64,000 bases of DNA, from assembly GCA_938021675.1 (NCBI GenBank), contig CALIFY010000007.1:1-64000 (forward strand), in the 5' to 3' direction. This DNA is from an uncultured Acidimicrobiales bacterium. Its GTDB lineage: Bacteria > Actinomycetota > Acidimicrobiia > Acidimicrobiales > SZUA-35. How positions within the stretch are numbered: position 1 is the stretch's first letter; the number at the start of each line of letters is the position of its first letter. Shown here one piece after another: positions 3,744 to 12,964 of the stretch. The notes below the pieces were generated by a model. It was not told where the DNA came from, made no database searches, and saw only the letters and a list, made by a program, of their open reading frames with translations. The position numbers and the translations under genes are program-made.

Positions 3744-3829
3744 CCGCTTCTCGATCGCATCACGGCGGCAGGTTGCTGAGGTGAGGTCAAACCCCGGATA
3801 GGGTTACGTTGCCGGTAGTTGGAGTAGCT

Positions 3830-4231
3830 GTGAATGACAGAGTGGAACACCTACAGATGGTCCAGTCGATCATCACCCGGATGGCCCAAAACTCCTTCCT
3901 GCTCAAGGGGTGGACGATCACGCTTATGGCCGGAATTTTTGCGATTGCAGCCACGAGCACTACCGGCTCTCTTGTGGCAATTGCGTTTGTTCCAGCGACC
4001 GGATTTTGGTTCCTTGACGCCTACTACCTTCGTCAGGAGCGGCTGTTCCGGTTGCTTTACGAACGAGTTCGTGACGCTCCGGATGTAGATTTCTCAATGA
4101 AAACAAGCCCGGATAGAGCCGCCGGTACTGGCTGGTGGGCTGTTGTGTTCTCTATCACGCTCGTCATCTTTTACGGACTAGCTCTGCTGACCGTAGCCCT
4201 GGTCTGGATCGGGATATCGATCGCTGGGTGA
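3830..4231 (+). CDS. Small membrane protein next to the TIR gene
   Basis: A 133-residue protein starting at a GTG with GGAG five bases upstream; an in-frame TTG at 3809 is the alternative. The cytosolic N-terminus (NDRVEHLQMVQSIITRMAQN) leads into SFLLKGWTITLMAG, then two closely spaced membrane segments, the loop DAYYLRQERLFRLLYERVR, and a third hydrophobic segment at the C-terminus. I recognise this as a widespread family of unknown function, often met in accessory regions; I recall association with TIR genes but cannot verify it here. It converges on the TIR-VWA gene with 36 bases between the stops. Confidence 0.75.
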   Translation: MNDRVEHLQMVQSIITRMAQNSFLLKGWTITLMAGIFAIAATSTTGSLVAIAFVPATGFWFLDAYYLRQERLFRLLYERVRDAPDVDFSMKTSPDRAAGTGWWAVVFSITLVIFYGLALLTVALVWIGISIAG

Positions 4232-4267: not shown

Positions 4268-6562
4268 TCAAAAGTTGCTGATGATGTCGATAAACGCTTC
4301 GGCTATCGTGCTCGGGTCGCGAGCGTCGTACGCTTCAGCCTGGGTGGTATCGGCAATTTCTCGCATCGTTTCGAGGTCCGAGTCCTTGTCCAATGCGATA
4401 GAAAAGATGCGAATCGGTGGTTGTCCGTCGCCGTCAAGCTCGTCGAGTAAGCGGATGAGGTCGGTGTCGCCGTCATCGTTCATCCCATCGCTAACCACTA
4501 AGACAGTATTGATGAGATCCGTTTCGTCCTGAGACTCGAGTGAGCTGACCGCGTCTCGAATAGTACGGTAGAGGGCGGTGTCTCCTGGTGTTGGTTGAAT
4601 ATCACCTAGATTCGCTGAAAGTCTGAGTTTGTGGTCGTCATCCAGCCGAGCTGTCTCGACCAATTCGCGGTATGGGGTCGGGCCGAAGGCTCGTTCGCTG
4701 GAGAAGATCCACAAGCCAACCTCGTCATCGGAGGACAGCTGGTCTAACGCATCAGCCGCAGCCTTCTTTGCTACGTCGTTGCGGGTGGTTGTCTCGCCTT
4801 CGCGTACTGTCTCGCGCATACTCCCCGAAACGTCGTACAGAAGCAGTAGCCGAACCTTCTTTCTTAGCTCGGCCCAGTCATCCAGAATCTGTTGAACCAC
4901 CTCTGCTGACGGCGGGTCCACGACGGTCGGCCTGTCGGTTGATGCCTGGGTTGCTTGCACCAACGCCGTCCCGGCGATGCCTTCTGAGTCCCGGAAGCCG
5001 GCTGCTTGGAGTTCTTGCTGCTGTTCGTTGTTCTGAACGAACTCAAAGAACCCTGCAGCTAGTTCGCGTTGGTCCTCCGATGCTGACGGCAAGACGACGA
5101 AGGGGTGGTCCATCATGAGGGTTCCGTCTTTCGGGCTGATTGCCACGAGCGGAATTTCGGGGCGTGGGGCATTGTCGAAGCCATCTCGGTCGCCCCCGGG
5201 GTTCCCTGTGTTGTAGAGATATACCAGCTGCTCTTGCATCAGGATGGCGCTGACGTACGGCAGTTCGCCCGCTTGTGCTTCGGCTTCTGCGAACTTGGTA
5301 AGGAACTTGAGGGCCTCGTCGGAGTAGTGCACCACGCCCCGCTCGACTCCCTCGACGAAGTCCCGAACCTCGGGATCCTCGACGTCTGCGAGCGTCAGCT
5401 CGCTCTTGCCGGATGCCGCGTAGTACGAGGCAATCGTCGCCGCCATTCCGGAGGTAGATCGTTGTGGGTTGTCCTTTCCTATCGTTAGTGGACCCCATTC
5501 TGGGTGGCCGTGGGAGGCCCAGCCGCCCGGTGCATTGATCAGGTCGAGAACGTCGCTCCAGCCGATCGGCTCGTCGGGCCAACCCAGGGCGCGGGCCATC
5601 GGTTCTCGCATGGCGATGACTGCAGGACTTTGGGCCAGGGAGCCCACGATCTGCGGTTGGTCTTCCCGTTCATCATCGGCCCAAGCCTTCTCCAGAATCG
5701 ACACCCAGATTGAAGAGGTCGGCAGCCAAACCTGTGGCTCGGGTTCGCCGGTACCTCGGCTCTCCCATCCATCGGCCAAAGCCTGACGGGCCAGACCGGA
5801 TGTCACACGAGATACGGAGACTTCAACGCATCGTCCGTCGTCCAAGCGCGTGTTCTCGTTGTAGTCATTGGCGAACCCTGTCATGAGGTCTGCTTTTTCG
5901 GTCGAAACCGCCATGTCCAGTTCGACACACGACCCGGTGGGAATTTCTGGTGCAGCGACACTCGTCTCGGGGCGGTCCTCGTCGTTTCCACTTTGGCCTG
6001 TTGACGGCCAGGCGAGGAATGCGGCTATCACAGCTAGTGCAGCCCCTATCGCCCAGATCGTGTGGGGGGAAGCTCTCCACCTTGTCTCAGCTTTTGGGGT
6101 ATCCGGAGACAGTTCGACCATCCGGTTTACCAGGCGAGCAAGGTCGCCATCATGCTCTGGGCCGCTCCGAATGGGCTGCGCCTGACGGAAACAAATCTCC
6201 CTCAGGTCGTCTGGCCATTCGTCCTTTCCTGGCATGATTCGGCCGTCGGCCAGAACGGGGACGATCGGGACTGACCCACGTAGGGCTCGCCGTAGTTCGT
6301 AGGCGACGAAATCCCCTTCGGAGAATAGACGCTCTGCGCTCCAGTGTTGCCCGATGACCAACACCACTGCCGCGGAGCGGTCCAGAGCACGGTCGATTGC
6401 TAGACGGGAATCGTCTCCAGACCCTATCGAATGTAAGTCTTGGAAGACTGATACGATTTTTGGTGACTTCAGAAGAAACCGGCGAATTTGGGCAGCGAGA
6501 AAGGGGCTGTCTCGCTTCTGGTAACAAAGAAAAACAGCTCGCTCTGATTTTCGAAATCGCAA
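4268..6562 (-). CDS. TIR domain - transmembrane - solute-binding - VWA protein
   Basis: About 764 residues from TTG 6562 (AAGGGG six bases upstream); TTG 6658 would add 32 poorly conserved-looking residues. Residues 8-125 form a TIR domain: AVFLCYQKRDS, FQDLHSIGSGDD, VLVIGQHW, and DFVAYEL with Glu 89 at the position of the catalytic NADase glutamate. A single membrane helix spans about 168-186. The rest should lie outside the cell: a family-1-like solute-binding domain (about 205-560) and a VWA domain (about 568-764) with the MIDAS motif DVSGS plus distal Thr and VVSDG. Solute-binding/VWA fusions are known as actinobacterial surface proteins; joining one to a cytosolic TIR gives a Toll-receptor-like layout. 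I infer ligand sensing controls NAD+ cleavage or signal production. Just upstream lies an IS3 remnant. Confidence 0.85.
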   Translation of the reverse strand: MRFRKSERAVFLCYQKRDSPFLAAQIRRFLLKSPKIVSVFQDLHSIGSGDDSRLAIDRALDRSAAVVLVIGQHWSAERLFSEGDFVAYELRRALRGSVPIVPVLADGRIMPGKDEWPDDLREICFRQAQPIRSGPEHDGDLARLVNRMVELSPDTPKAETRWRASPHTIWAIGAALAVIAAFLAWPSTGQSGNDEDRPETSVAAPEIPTGSCVELDMAVSTEKADLMTGFANDYNENTRLDDGRCVEVSVSRVTSGLARQALADGWESRGTGEPEPQVWLPTSSIWVSILEKAWADDEREDQPQIVGSLAQSPAVIAMREPMARALGWPDEPIGWSDVLDLINAPGGWASHGHPEWGPLTIGKDNPQRSTSGMAATIASYYAASGKSELTLADVEDPEVRDFVEGVERGVVHYSDEALKFLTKFAEAEAQAGELPYVSAILMQEQLVYLYNTGNPGGDRDGFDNAPRPEIPLVAISPKDGTLMMDHPFVVLPSASEDQRELAAGFFEFVQNNEQQQELQAAGFRDSEGIAGTALVQATQASTDRPTVVDPPSAEVVQQILDDWAELRKKVRLLLLYDVSGSMRETVREGETTTRNDVAKKAAADALDQLSSDDEVGLWIFSSERAFGPTPYRELVETARLDDDHKLRLSANLGDIQPTPGDTALYRTIRDAVSSLESQDETDLINTVLVVSDGMNDDGDTDLIRLLDELDGDGQPPIRIFSIALDKDSDLETMREIADTTQAEAYDARDPSTIAEAFIDIISNF

Positions 6563-6774
6563 TACTAACCCCTTGCAAGACCTGTATAAAGTACGCTCGA
6601 ATAGAGCGACAAGTAGTGCCGACCGTACGCCATTCTGTTTCTGGTGGGAGTGGTCCAACGCGATTCTACAGGCCTAGGAATCCGGTAGGTCTTGGGGTGG
6701 CATGTGGTGGTTCGATTGCCCAGGTGCGGAAGTCCTGGAGTGGAGCGCTTTGCCTCTCCGGCCGTGTGGCTCGC
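6563..6774. other. Spacer between the TIR gene and the IS3 remnant
   Basis: No convincing gene on either strand. This should contain the promoter for the leftward TIR gene; I see no clear -35/-10 pair. Confidence 0.4.
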
Positions 6775-7397
6775 TCAGGAACCGGTGACACGCCGCGGAC
6801 GCCGAGCTGTTGCCCGATCGTGCGTGGACCCCAATCGAGATTTCGCCCGCCGGAACTTGTAGTCTTCAGCTCGCCAGAGACGGTGCACCTGTTTGTTGTT
6901 CACTCGCCAGCCTTCGGCCCAGAGCCCGTCGCAGTGCGCCGCCATCCCCACCTTGGTCGCCGCCTCGCGAACGCTCGGAGCCATTCACAGAGTTGTTCTT
7001 CGTCCGCTGGTGGCGGTTGCGGGCGGTGTCGTTGCACCGATCGATGTTGGCCGACTACCCGACATGCTCGGCGTTGCGATACCCGGAACTCGCCCTGCAG
7101 GTCATCAACAACCATGCGTTTGCGGTTCGGGTCATCACTTTTTCTCGGCCATGTATTTCAACATCGCCGTGTCCAACTCAGCCTCGGCCGATAGCTTCCT
7201 GAGCTGCTCGTTCTCGGCCCGAAGGTCTTTGAGTTCCTTCGCGTCATCGGCCTTCATGCCGCCGTATTGGTTGAGCCACCGATGTCAGGTCGAGATCAGC
7301 GATCTCGAGTTGCCGGCAGACATCGATCAGCTCCATCCCGCCAGCCTTGAGCTTGTGGCCCTCCGCTAACTTCCGGATGACTTCCGATTGGACTCGA
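6775..7397 (-). mobile_element. Degenerate IS3-family element (orfA and orfB remnants)
   Basis: On the minus strand, the upper end encodes an OrfA-like sequence, with IRKLAEGHKLKAGGMELID followed, after a frameshift, by GGMKADDAKELKDLRAENEQ and AELDTAMLKYMAEKK before a stop. Next comes an OrfB start region (RACRVVGQHRS, EEQLCEWLRAFARRRPRWGW), another frame break, and WRVNNKQVHRLWRAE, after which similarity fades. The DDE core of the transposase is absent. I infer a dead IS copy whose insertion or excision removed the 5' part of the exoprotein gene to its right. Confidence 0.8.
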
Positions 7398-7897
7398 TAC
7401 CACGCAGCGGAGCACGGTAGAGATGAATCCAGACGGTTCCGTGACGGTCTCGGTGCAAGAAAAGGTATTTGATTCGTTCGACCCGTCAATCGCAGCAGAA
7501 GGCGAGTTACCGGATCTTGAAGAACCGGTTAGCGCAAGGATGGAATGGGTGCCGCTCGGTATTTTCTCTGCTCCTTGGGTAGTTGATGCTAACGGTGTTG
7601 AAGTTCCCACATGGTTTGAAATCAGTGGGAATCAAATCACCCAAGTTGTCGATCTTTCATCTGAGGAAATCGCCTACCCGGTAGTGGCAGATCCCGACTA
7701 CACCAACTCCTGCAATTTGGTTAGGTGTCAGCGACACTTTGCGGTCGACGTATCCCTTCAAGTCGGGAGGGATATGGCAAACTCAAGTCTGGCAGGTTGG
7801 GTCTTCGCCTAATGGACTCTACTGTGGTTTCGCCGGCGCCCTCGGTAATTGGTGGACGACTACCCCGTCGAGTGACAGCAACTGCAAGTGGACCTGA
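7397..7897 (+). pseudogene. Truncated and frameshifted actinobacterial exoprotein with YPVVADP motif
   Basis: The open frame beginning around 7397 (ATG at 7423) encodes MNPDGSVTVSVQEK and ends its recognisable part with IAYPVVADPDY, a motif common in large secreted actinobacterial proteins of unknown function. Past about 7725 the sense continues in a different frame (SSPNGLYCGFAGALGNWW, then SNCKWT and a stop at 7897). There is no N-terminus or signal peptide; the gene begins at the edge of the IS3 remnant. I infer an exoprotein 3' fragment damaged by the insertion and a later frameshift. Confidence 0.6.
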
Positions 7898-8238: not shown

Positions 8239-8311
8239 AAACTTGGATTACAGGCCCGTAATTCCAAGTTTCGAGCGCGAAACTTGTGTATCAGTCGGTA
8301 CAATCCAAGTT
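8239..8311. promoter_or_regulatory. Inverted repeat and third half-site before the Fic gene
   Basis: AAACTTGGA (8239-8247) and its exact complement TCCAAGTTT (8263-8271) flank 15 bases, and another TCCAAGTT sits at 8304-8311 directly before the likely start. Three copies of one half-site in 73 bases look like an operator. Fic proteins with a C-terminal winged helix may regulate themselves; binding here is inference. Confidence 0.5.
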
Positions 8312-9505
8312 GTGGGTGCTGATCTCTCGAAGTCGCCTGTGGGCTCGTCCGTGCTCATTCGAGGCACGGACCATCGGTTCAACGCGCCCTATGAGCTTGG
8401 TGCCTTCGTTCCTGCGCCGTTGCCGCGCAACCTCGATCTGCCTGGCGACGTTTGGATGGCTCTGTCAGACGCCATGGGCGCGCTTGGCCGGCTCGACTCG
8501 GCCGCGAGCCTGATCCCGAACCCGCAGCTCGTGACCAGAGTCGCAACTCGCCGTGAGGCGATTGGCACCTCCGCACTCGAAGGAACGTTTGCGAACCTGA
8601 CGGAGCTGTTCGCCGCGGAAGCGATCTCTGTTGAAGAGGTCGATCTGAGCATCCCGCCCAACGTCCGCGAGGTGATGAATTACACGCGAGCGGCCGACGC
8701 TGCCTTCGATTGGATCCGGGAACGTCCTATCACGATCCCTTTGCTGTCGAGCCTGCAAGCGGAGATAGTTCGGGGAACCGACAGCGATCTTCCCGAAGCT
8801 GGTGCGCTACGGGAACGCCAGGTGTTTATCGGCACCAAGAACCGGCCAATCACCGAGGCCCGGTTCATACCACCTCCCCCGGGCGACCAGCTCGTTCTGC
8901 TGCTCGATGGCTGGCTCGCTTGGCTCAACGATGAGACGCTCCGCGACTCCTTGCATCTGCTCGTGCGCGTCGCGCTCGCTCACTATCAGTTCGAGACCAT
9001 TCACCCGTACACCGATGGCAACGGTCGACTGGGCCGCCTCGTCGCCGTTCTGCAGCTCCTCACCGACGGTGCGCTCAAGACCCCCGTGCTGTCGATCTCC
9101 GACTGGCTGAAGGATCGAGGTCCCGAGTACCGAGACCACCTGTTGCGTGTGAGCGTCACCGGCGAGTGGGCGCCGTGGATCGAGTTCATCGCTCAGACGG
9201 TGGCCGCTTCAGCAGATGACGCGCTTCGCCGGGTGATGGGCCTCCTGGCGCTTCGAGAAGAGCTTTCAGAACAGGCCCGCCGGGCGCTTCCACGAGCGCG
9301 TCTCGCCATCGAGATAGCCGATGACCTAATCGCCTTCCCGATTCTCACAGTGGCCGCCGCCCAGTCTCGGTACGGCAAGTCCAACCAGGCGAACCGGAAC
9401 GCAATCAACCGTCTCTGCGAACTCGGCCTCCTCGAGCCGTACGGCGATACCCGATACGACCGTCTGTACTGGAACCGCCGTGTGTTCGAAGTCATCGAGA
9501 GTTAA
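8312..9505 (+). CDS. Fic-family AMP-transferase with autoinhibitory motif and winged-helix tail
   Basis: About 397 residues from GTG 8312; the frame is open back to TTG 8243, but that would start inside the inverted repeat. An N-terminal Fic_N region carries TSALEGTFANLTELF, matching the [S/T]xxxE[G/N] inhibitory helix of class II Fic proteins. The catalytic loop is HPYTDGNGRLGRL. The last 90 residues look like a winged-helix DNA-binding domain (ILTVAAAQSRYGKSNQANRN, LCELGLLEPYGDTRYDRLYW). It should transfer AMP to a protein hydroxyl in the cytoplasm; the target is unknown. Its 3' end abuts an integrase fragment. Confidence 0.88.
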   Translation: MGADLSKSPVGSSVLIRGTDHRFNAPYELGAFVPAPLPRNLDLPGDVWMALSDAMGALGRLDSAASLIPNPQLVTRVATRREAIGTSALEGTFANLTELFAAEAISVEEVDLSIPPNVREVMNYTRAADAAFDWIRERPITIPLLSSLQAEIVRGTDSDLPEAGALRERQVFIGTKNRPITEARFIPPPPGDQLVLLLDGWLAWLNDETLRDSLHLLVRVALAHYQFETIHPYTDGNGRLGRLVAVLQLLTDGALKTPVLSISDWLKDRGPEYRDHLLRVSVTGEWAPWIEFIAQTVAASADDALRRVMGLLALREELSEQARRALPRARLAIEIADDLIAFPILTVAAAQSRYGKSNQANRNAINRLCELGLLEPYGDTRYDRLYWNRRVFEVIES

Positions 9506-9674: not shown

Positions 9675-9780
9675 TCGTGTCTACTGTTCGCCGTTGTTCT
9701 AGGCACATTGTAGGCACGAGGTCCGGTTGCTATCCAGTGGGTCAGGCCGGATGACCCCGATTGCCAGGGCTTTCGTAGAG

Positions 9781-9823
9781 AGCGGGTGACGAGAATCGAA
9801 CTAGCGTATTCAGCTTGGGAAGC
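9781..9823 (-). repeat. Attachment-site scar A: partial copy of tRNA-Gly 3' end
   Basis: 43 bases match the 3' part of tRNA-Gly(CCC) at 12894-12936 with one mismatch (A at 9803). The copy covers the T-arm and the 3' half of the anticodon arm and stops before the 5' half, so it is not a functional tRNA. It is the outermost of three direct copies. Confidence 0.85.
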
Positions 9824-11800: not shown

Positions 11801-11894
11801 GATCGAGGAGTTAGGGCACGTGGAGGGCACGGAGCCTGATTCCGAGACCGAGAAGCAGGGCGGCGGTGGTGCGTTTCTCCTGGTCAGCCTGTTG

Positions 11895-11937
11895 AGCGGG
11901 TGACGAGAATCGAACTCGCGTATTCAGCTTGGGAAGC
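11895..11937 (-). repeat. Attachment-site scar B: exact partial copy of tRNA-Gly 3' end
   Basis: 43 bases identical to 12894-12936 inside the intact tRNA-Gly gene, in the same orientation. Together with the tRNA it brackets a 1.0-kb segment whose only genes are vapB and vapC. Confidence 0.88.
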
Positions 11938-12701: not shown

Positions 12702-12893
12702 GCATCCATCATAACTCACGGGTGTGACTGCTCGCCCTCGAAGCCCGACGGACGGCTTTCTGGAGTCCGCCTTCTAGGTTCGGCCCTAGAAGTCAGCGTC
12801 TCGAAGTGGCACGTTGTGGCACGACGATGCTGGCCTGTCGGTCGGCCAAGTCGGCACCAGCCGAGTTTTCCCTGTTCAGGGGCTTGCGATGGG

Positions 12894-12936
12894 AGCGGGT
12901 GACGAGAATCGAACTCGCGTATTCAGCTTGGGAAGC
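12894..12936 (-). repeat. Attachment core within tRNA-Gly (reference copy)
   Basis: The 43-base segment shared with scars A and B. It runs from the discriminator base through the T-arm to the 3' side of the anticodon arm, the usual target of tyrosine integrases in tRNA genes. Confidence 0.85.
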
Positions 12937-12964
12937 TGATGTTCTACCATTGAACTACACCCGC
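12894..12964 (-). tRNA. tRNA-Gly(CCC)
   Basis: A 71-base cloverleaf: acceptor GCGGGTG / CACCCGC with T discriminator, D-arm GTTCAATGGTAGAAC, anticodon arm TCAGC-TTCCCAA-GCTGA giving anticodon CCC, and T-arm GCGAGTTCGATTCTCGT. CCA is not encoded. Its 3' half served as an integration site, as shown by partial copies at 11895 and 9781. Confidence 0.93.

Follow-up and report, generated by a model that had tools for sequence, protein, structure and literature searches.

To our knowledge, every bacterial TIR defence system investigated to date is switched on by phage components within the cell. Toll-like receptors combine an outer sensor made of leucine-rich repeats, a single helix, and an inner TIR domain, with the N-terminus outside. 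A gene with a comparable layout lies on the minus strand at positions 4268–6562 of the window, the term used here for the whole 64,000-nucleotide stretch of contig CALIFY010000007.1 (an uncultured Acidimicrobiales bacterium) that was analysed. Its product places a TIR domain ahead of one membrane helix, a solute-binding protein (SBP) domain, and a VWA domain with a metal ion-dependent adhesion site (MIDAS). The predicted outer sensor, single helix, and inner TIR domain recall the Toll-like receptors; unlike them, the protein has SBP and VWA domains and no leucine-rich repeats, its N-terminus is predicted to lie inside, and its TIR profile finds only SARM1 and tir-1 in the PDB. Among the matches listed in a search of the open-access literature, judged by title and the start of the abstract, no TIR-SBP-VWA protein or TIR-PASTA receptor is described.

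Several bacterial systems resemble parts of this locus. Pairs of a TIR gene and a gene for a small multi-helix membrane protein, represented by PDC-M50 in PADLOC and by phage TIR-SLATT, share with it the juxtaposition of the two genes. In one account, phage TIR genes adjoin SLATT genes whose products have two transmembrane helices, and SLATT is predicted to be a membrane effector regulated by ADP-ribose derivatives (PMC9503650). In such pairs the TIR domain stands alone as a protein (assigned to PF08937 in both cases tested), whereas in the window it forms the inner half of a membrane receptor; of the PDC-M50 components M50A is encoded here (E = 2e-42), and the window TIR protein does not match the M50B model. 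Membrane-associated two-gene conflict systems with EACC1 carry variable modules, among them membrane helices with an extracellular periplasmic-binding domain behind them, and in related conflict systems TIR and PNPase serve as effector domains (PMC7159879). Their core joins EACC1 to a caspase or cyclase (PMC7159879), and neither a caspase nor a cyclase domain was found in the window open reading frames (ORFs) scanned. Thoeris was considered and rejected, neither ThsA nor ThsB being found: the window TIR protein reaches only E = 0.017 and 0.019 with ThsB models, the NCBIfam model for Thoeris type III ThcB4 gives 19.4 bits (cut-off 220; E = 3.7e-4), and no SIR2, SLOG, or Macro domain indicative of ThsA occurs in the six other ORFs scanned between 2649 and 12483.

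Closer relatives are found for the outer half. Surface proteins annotated as substrate-binding and VWA domain-containing (for example WP_332880827.1) are homologous to it at about 30–49% identity; they carry a lipobox or a bare membrane anchor, are often encoded near PspA and a partner gene, and have no TIR domain in the other members examined. Proteins with the order phosphorylase-type domain, helix, SBP, VWA are alike in outer half and in layout, and their cytosolic domain is likewise of nucleotide-acting type; they differ in having PNP_UDP_1 in place of TIR and in forming a separate clade.

The receptor frame encodes 764 residues from a TTG at 6562, with the sequence AAGGGG 6 nt upstream, and is open further to a TTG at 6658, which gives 796 residues. 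From N- to C-terminus it contains TIR_2, one membrane helix, SBP_bac_11, and VWA. The TIR domain (6212–6535, minus strand) scores 37.6 bits against PF13676, above the curated cut-off of 28. A profile built from this domain and seven relatives matches 19 distinct PDB sequences at E ≤ 0.01, all of them SARM1 or its worm relative tir-1, and the best is the NAD+ hydrolase SARM1 (E = 1.8e-15). Residue E89 (E121 in the longer frame; 6296–6298, minus strand), invariant in all eight aligned TIR rows, aligns with the Glu of the SARM1 motif KEIVTAL, which we take to be the catalytic one. Because the profile matches SARM1 with this invariant Glu in register, the domain is called NADase-type, an assignment that its sequence supports. 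The AlphaFold2 model is of low confidence over this domain, and identification of the TIR therefore rests on the profiles.

The sole strongly hydrophobic stretch of the protein, at about residues 199–219 of 796 (6002–6064, minus strand), marks the membrane helix; elsewhere no 19-residue window exceeds a hydropathy of 1.09. Arg and His residues precede the helix and Asp and Glu residues follow it; an N-in/C-out orientation is therefore predicted, with the TIR domain cytosolic and the SBP and VWA domains external. The SBP domain (4991–5917, minus strand) scores 57.8 bits against PF13531 (cut-off 25), and its fold resembles those of sulfate-binding proteins (5um2, Z 27.2; 1sbp, Z 26.5). The VWA domain (4289–4852, minus strand) falls slightly below the Pfam cut-off of 27 with both VWA_3 (26.8 bits) and VWA_2 (25.2 bits). 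Its identity is settled nonetheless by a fold match to 4fx5 (Z 24.4 over 177 residues, 1.8 Å) and by five MIDAS residues, D577, S579, S581, T662, and D692 of 764, that are invariant in 33 of 33 SBP/VWA rows, the window's included. The model has a mean predicted local distance difference test (pLDDT) score of 80.6, with block means of 77–98 over the outer half and 29–75 over linker and helix; no solved structure is related by whole-protein sequence at E ≤ 0.01.

A first-pass annotation of the sequence had proposed a Toll-like layout consisting of a TIR domain with a catalytic-type Glu 89, a single helix, and an external family-1-like solute-binding domain with a VWA domain of intact MIDAS. Pfam and hydropathy bear out this order, and both the Glu and the MIDAS are confirmed by the alignments. 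The solute-binding identity holds as well, although not the assignment to family 1, the domain belonging to PF13531 with the fold of sulfate- and polyamine-type binding proteins. A placement of TIR and VWA on the same side of the membrane, which would have spoken against the proposal, is not what the topology prediction gives.

That the outer half serves as a sensor for more than one output is indicated by its occurrence behind other cytosolic domains. In 295 genomes of the genus of genome G483, loci were taken for the best 30 matches. Five loci in Streptomyces-like genomes (L119, L120, L123, L124, L125) encode the SBP-VWA half preceded by a nucleoside-phosphorylase-type domain, a low-complexity linker, and a helix. 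Pfam identifies PNP_UDP_1 (PF01048) and VWA in all of these except L124, whose architecture was judged by eye, and SBP_bac_11 in three of the four. At least five such loci exist, long-frame matches without a locus (for example G846, G913, G963:C41, and G1076) lying outside the count. The PADLOC model "Effector, PN-superfamily" matches the two phosphorylase-type fusions tested (1e-13 and 3e-10). In a further locus, L122, HTH_31 is fused to the same outer half (27.3 bits, cut-off 27); no additional cytosolic fusion was seen among the loci read from 345 genomes of the class of G483. Long upstream frames elsewhere (for example in L007, L013, L015, L020, L059, L068, L133, and L140) appear by eye to be domain-free readings of G+C-rich sequence, and the fusion count leaves them out.

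Since the outer half follows PNP_UDP_1 or HTH_31 elsewhere, several outputs sit on one sensor. A single clade of the TIR, phosphorylase, and HTH forms, a constraint chosen after the architectures had been seen, is rejected at a cost of 124 log-likelihood units (approximately unbiased test, p = 8e-44). The cytosolic domain has thus been swapped independently on one sensor. The first-pass annotation had also allowed for homologues without the TIR part and for a chance fusion at the N-terminus. Most homologues do indeed lack a TIR domain, but a meaningless fusion is unlikely because the same outer half has been joined separately to phosphorylase-type and HTH domains; for the window gene, an out-of-frame reading or chance fusion is also unlikely given the conserved TIR residues and the helix.

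The converse exchange is seen among related TIR domains. Loci fetched with TIR-bearing queries contain 23 distinct TIR proteins, counted after a duplicate and a weak second row had been set aside, and 15 of these carry a hydrophobic segment after the TIR domain. Pfam, run on ten of them, finds PASTA (L219), NHL (L217), Big_9 with TPR (L044), or TPR (L220) after TIR and segment in proteins from related genomes. A PQQ propeller (L211) and WD40 repeats (L222) occur in proteins with no segment above threshold, TIG in L221 is below its cut-off, and three proteins (L208, L214, L043) show TIR_2 alone. The domains of L219 suggest a TIR cell-wall sensor.

The best clue to the output of the receptor is its neighbour, passed over in the first-pass annotation, a membrane protein of the PDC-M50A family and candidate partner or effector (3809–4231, plus strand; PDLC04686, E = 2e-42). 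The two genes stand tail to tail, with 36 bp between their ends; a GTG at 3830 is an alternative M50A start that, by eye, better fits the family alignment. The predicted structure (pLDDT 90.4) consists of three long helices, residues 3–49, 60–89, and 116–139, and has no match in the PDB with E ≤ 0.001. Residues R24, K33, D70, and E77, invariant in a 22-row alignment, are retained. Pfam, which contains SLATT models, yields no family for this protein at E ≤ 1, SLATT included. By analogy M50A is plausibly of the SLATT-effector kind, though without a Pfam match.

Across its family, M50A is linked to TIR genes. It occurs in 140 plasmid records, bacterial and archaeal; of 30 that were listed, 20 loci were picked for taxonomic spread, and in 19 an annotated TIR gene lies within 1.5 kb, the exception being H17. 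A TIR gene adjoins M50A in 15 of the 17 viral contigs returned by the scan. Five of 296 genomes of the class encode M50A, the window's included; in two of the others (L081, L082) the gene overlaps a ThsB-type TIR gene whose product matches the PDC-M50B model PDLC04688. In the window genome (4.4 Mb, 99 contigs, completeness about 95%) the receptor is the sole match to PF13676, and M50A likewise is matched once; PF08937 (ThsB_TIR) has no match at E ≤ 0.1, which leaves no ThsB-type TIR as alternative partner in a genome of that completeness. A chance adjacency of two single-copy genes is unlikely. A HIT-domain gene is present in seven of the 20 plasmid loci (L158, L165, L167, L171, L173, L175, L176), and the M50A match of L176 falls within a protein whose annotation is HIT family; HIT proteins are possibly a third component acting on a nucleotide signal.

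By homology, the outer half belongs to a family of surface proteins that is widespread and whose genes often lie close to PspA. It is matched at E ≤ 1e-5 in 46 of 296 class genomes, the window's own among them, and the other long matches start at residues 156–245, past the TIR domain. Many homologues have a lipobox (57 of 115 rows by a rough automatic test); others are bare membrane-anchored proteins. At the 16 lipoprotein-type loci with flanks, phmmer finds a membrane/coiled-coil partner in 15, a PspA homologue in 10, and an AAA ATPase homologue in 7, the Pfam test within these loci confirming one PspA (PF04012) and one AAA. The anchored set without a cytosolic domain (L022, L114–L118, L126) has the partner in five of seven, L118 ending at a contig edge. 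Together with L121, these make 20 of 24 loci without fusion in which the partner gene is present, against none of the seven with a cytosolic fusion (the window, L119, L120, and L122–L125); the seven represent only two or three independent lineages, hence no test statistic is given. It is as if the fused cytosolic domain had taken over the output from the partner gene. The window protein groups, in trees built from 97 and 47 sequences, with Streptomyces-like members of the anchored set (Shimodaira–Hasegawa-like approximate likelihood ratio support 100) and away from the lipoproteins found in its own class. This placement suggests horizontal acquisition, tentatively because the branch is long.

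G+C is 0.54–0.56 in the TIR, VWA, and M50A segments, 0.61 in the SBP part, and 0.64 in serA. The end of a tRNA-Gly(CCC) gene (12892–12964) recurs in 44-bp copies at 9780–9823 and 11894–11937, 98% and 100% identical, which look like stacked att-like sites beside serB/serA-like genes; a relative in the genus (L181) has several similar copies. A Fic protein is encoded at 8243–9505 (PADLOC SoFic, E = 1e-84, under the NCBIfam equivalog cut-off), and both this gene and the repeats lie within about 6 kb of the receptor gene. What looks by eye like a broken transposase remnant lies at 6700–7400, between receptor and Fic genes. Membership of the receptor in an integration element is unproven, because the repeats all sit on one side of it. 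No plasmid record covers 80% of the receptor query, in two phage records without annotation only the outer half is matched, and no receptor appeared in viral contigs by a pattern scan that reaches close relatives only.

We give about even chances to the view that the protein is a single-pass outside-in receptor whose TIR domain cleaves NAD or produces an ADP-ribose signal, M50A being the membrane effector. The SBP domain and the MIDAS-bearing VWA domain would bind a ligand or a surface or envelope structure outside the cell, and binding or clustering would bring the cytosolic SARM1-type TIR domains together. The gathered domains may then cleave NAD+, producing an ADP-ribose-type or cyclic signal, depleting NAD+, or both. 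M50A would act with the TIR domain, most probably as an effector in the membrane that the TIR product gates, and the response would protect by arrest or lysis of the attacked cell.

A number of observations weigh against this outside-in receptor. A single genome showed the TIR/SBP/VWA order, whether among 296 of the class, 12 of the genus, or 396 of the phylum (overlapping samples, with at most three candidates scored per genome in the class and two in the phylum). One of 327 genomes of the order has it, and no other match there extends beyond residue 214 of a 254-residue TIR-helix query. Structure prediction, confident for the outer half, gives block means of 40–62 over the TIR and no confident TIR fold. 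The branch leading to the ectodomain is long (1.18 and 1.41), which could reflect adaptation or relaxed constraint. The receptor and M50A genes converge and so are not one operon; convergence of M50A and TIR genes is uncommon, being seen in three of the 20 plasmid loci (side by side in H19, separated by a HIT gene in H10 and H27) and in none of the 15 viral pairs. M50A stands without an adjoining TIR gene in L079 and L080 (no TIR in 13 kb), H17, and the viral L189, and in L199 only a weak match lies 2.6 kb away. The window TIR protein has no match to PDLC04688 at E ≤ 1, and clustering of accessory genes weakens the argument from adjacency. The Toll-like layout, the predicted topology, and the NADase-type TIR of the earlier interpretation stand by sequence; ligand sensing, NAD+ cleavage, and phage protection are roles that we infer.

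The main rival, given that genes of the outer half's family often neighbour PspA, is an envelope-stress or housekeeping sensor, in which the outer half would keep that family's job and the TIR domain would make a regulatory nucleotide unrelated to phage. The frequency of the partner and PspA genes at lipoprotein-type loci and the PASTA domains of L219 are in its favour. Against it, phmmer (E ≤ 1e-4) finds no PspA homologue or coiled-coil partner in the 64-kb window, neighbours that are common in the family and not universal. The M50A family is associated with TIR genes both on plasmids and in viral contigs, and none of the genus's other 11 genomes yielded the full protein. In one of these (G297) a contig end truncates a TIR piece of 117 residues (L083, 5276–5626), 33% identical to the window TIR, which could be the start of another TIR fusion. 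We regard such a sensor as unlikely, though a serious contender.

It is less probable still that M50A is the orphan of a lost TIR pair and merely nearby, the receptor acting alone through NAD+ depletion. The convergent orientation, the existence of orphans (L079, L080, H17), and a TIR domain that is not of the M50B type fit this account, but the receptor TIR and M50A are both single in their genome and adjoin, and a convergent adjoining M50A-TIR pair is found on a Deinococcus plasmid. Occurrence in a single genome, the long branch, a G+C below that of serA, and integration remnants a few kilobases away would suit an accidental or decaying fusion without function. Yet the frame is intact over 764 codons, the catalytic-type Glu, the five MIDAS residues, and a well-placed helix are kept, and analogous fusions have arisen independently; such an accidental or decaying fusion seems very improbable.

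A wider reading of the outside-in receptor, offered tentatively and with more doubt than confidence, is that Actinobacteria possess combinatorial Toll-like immune receptors, in which SARM1-type TIR domains are joined through one helix to many sensors (SBP-VWA, PASTA, NHL, Ig, TPR), the SBP-VWA sensor is joined to TIR, phosphorylase, or HTH domains, and M50A, as a small membrane protein dedicated to TIR, would execute the response. A transmembrane TIR protein with an external SBP/VWA sensor would be a bacterial counterpart of surface immune receptors, in layout and not in descent. With such a receptor one could test whether NAD-based immunity in bacteria is set off from outside the cell, and the exchange of TIR for a phosphorylase-type domain on the same sensor, together with the M50A partner, would provide concrete controls for that question.
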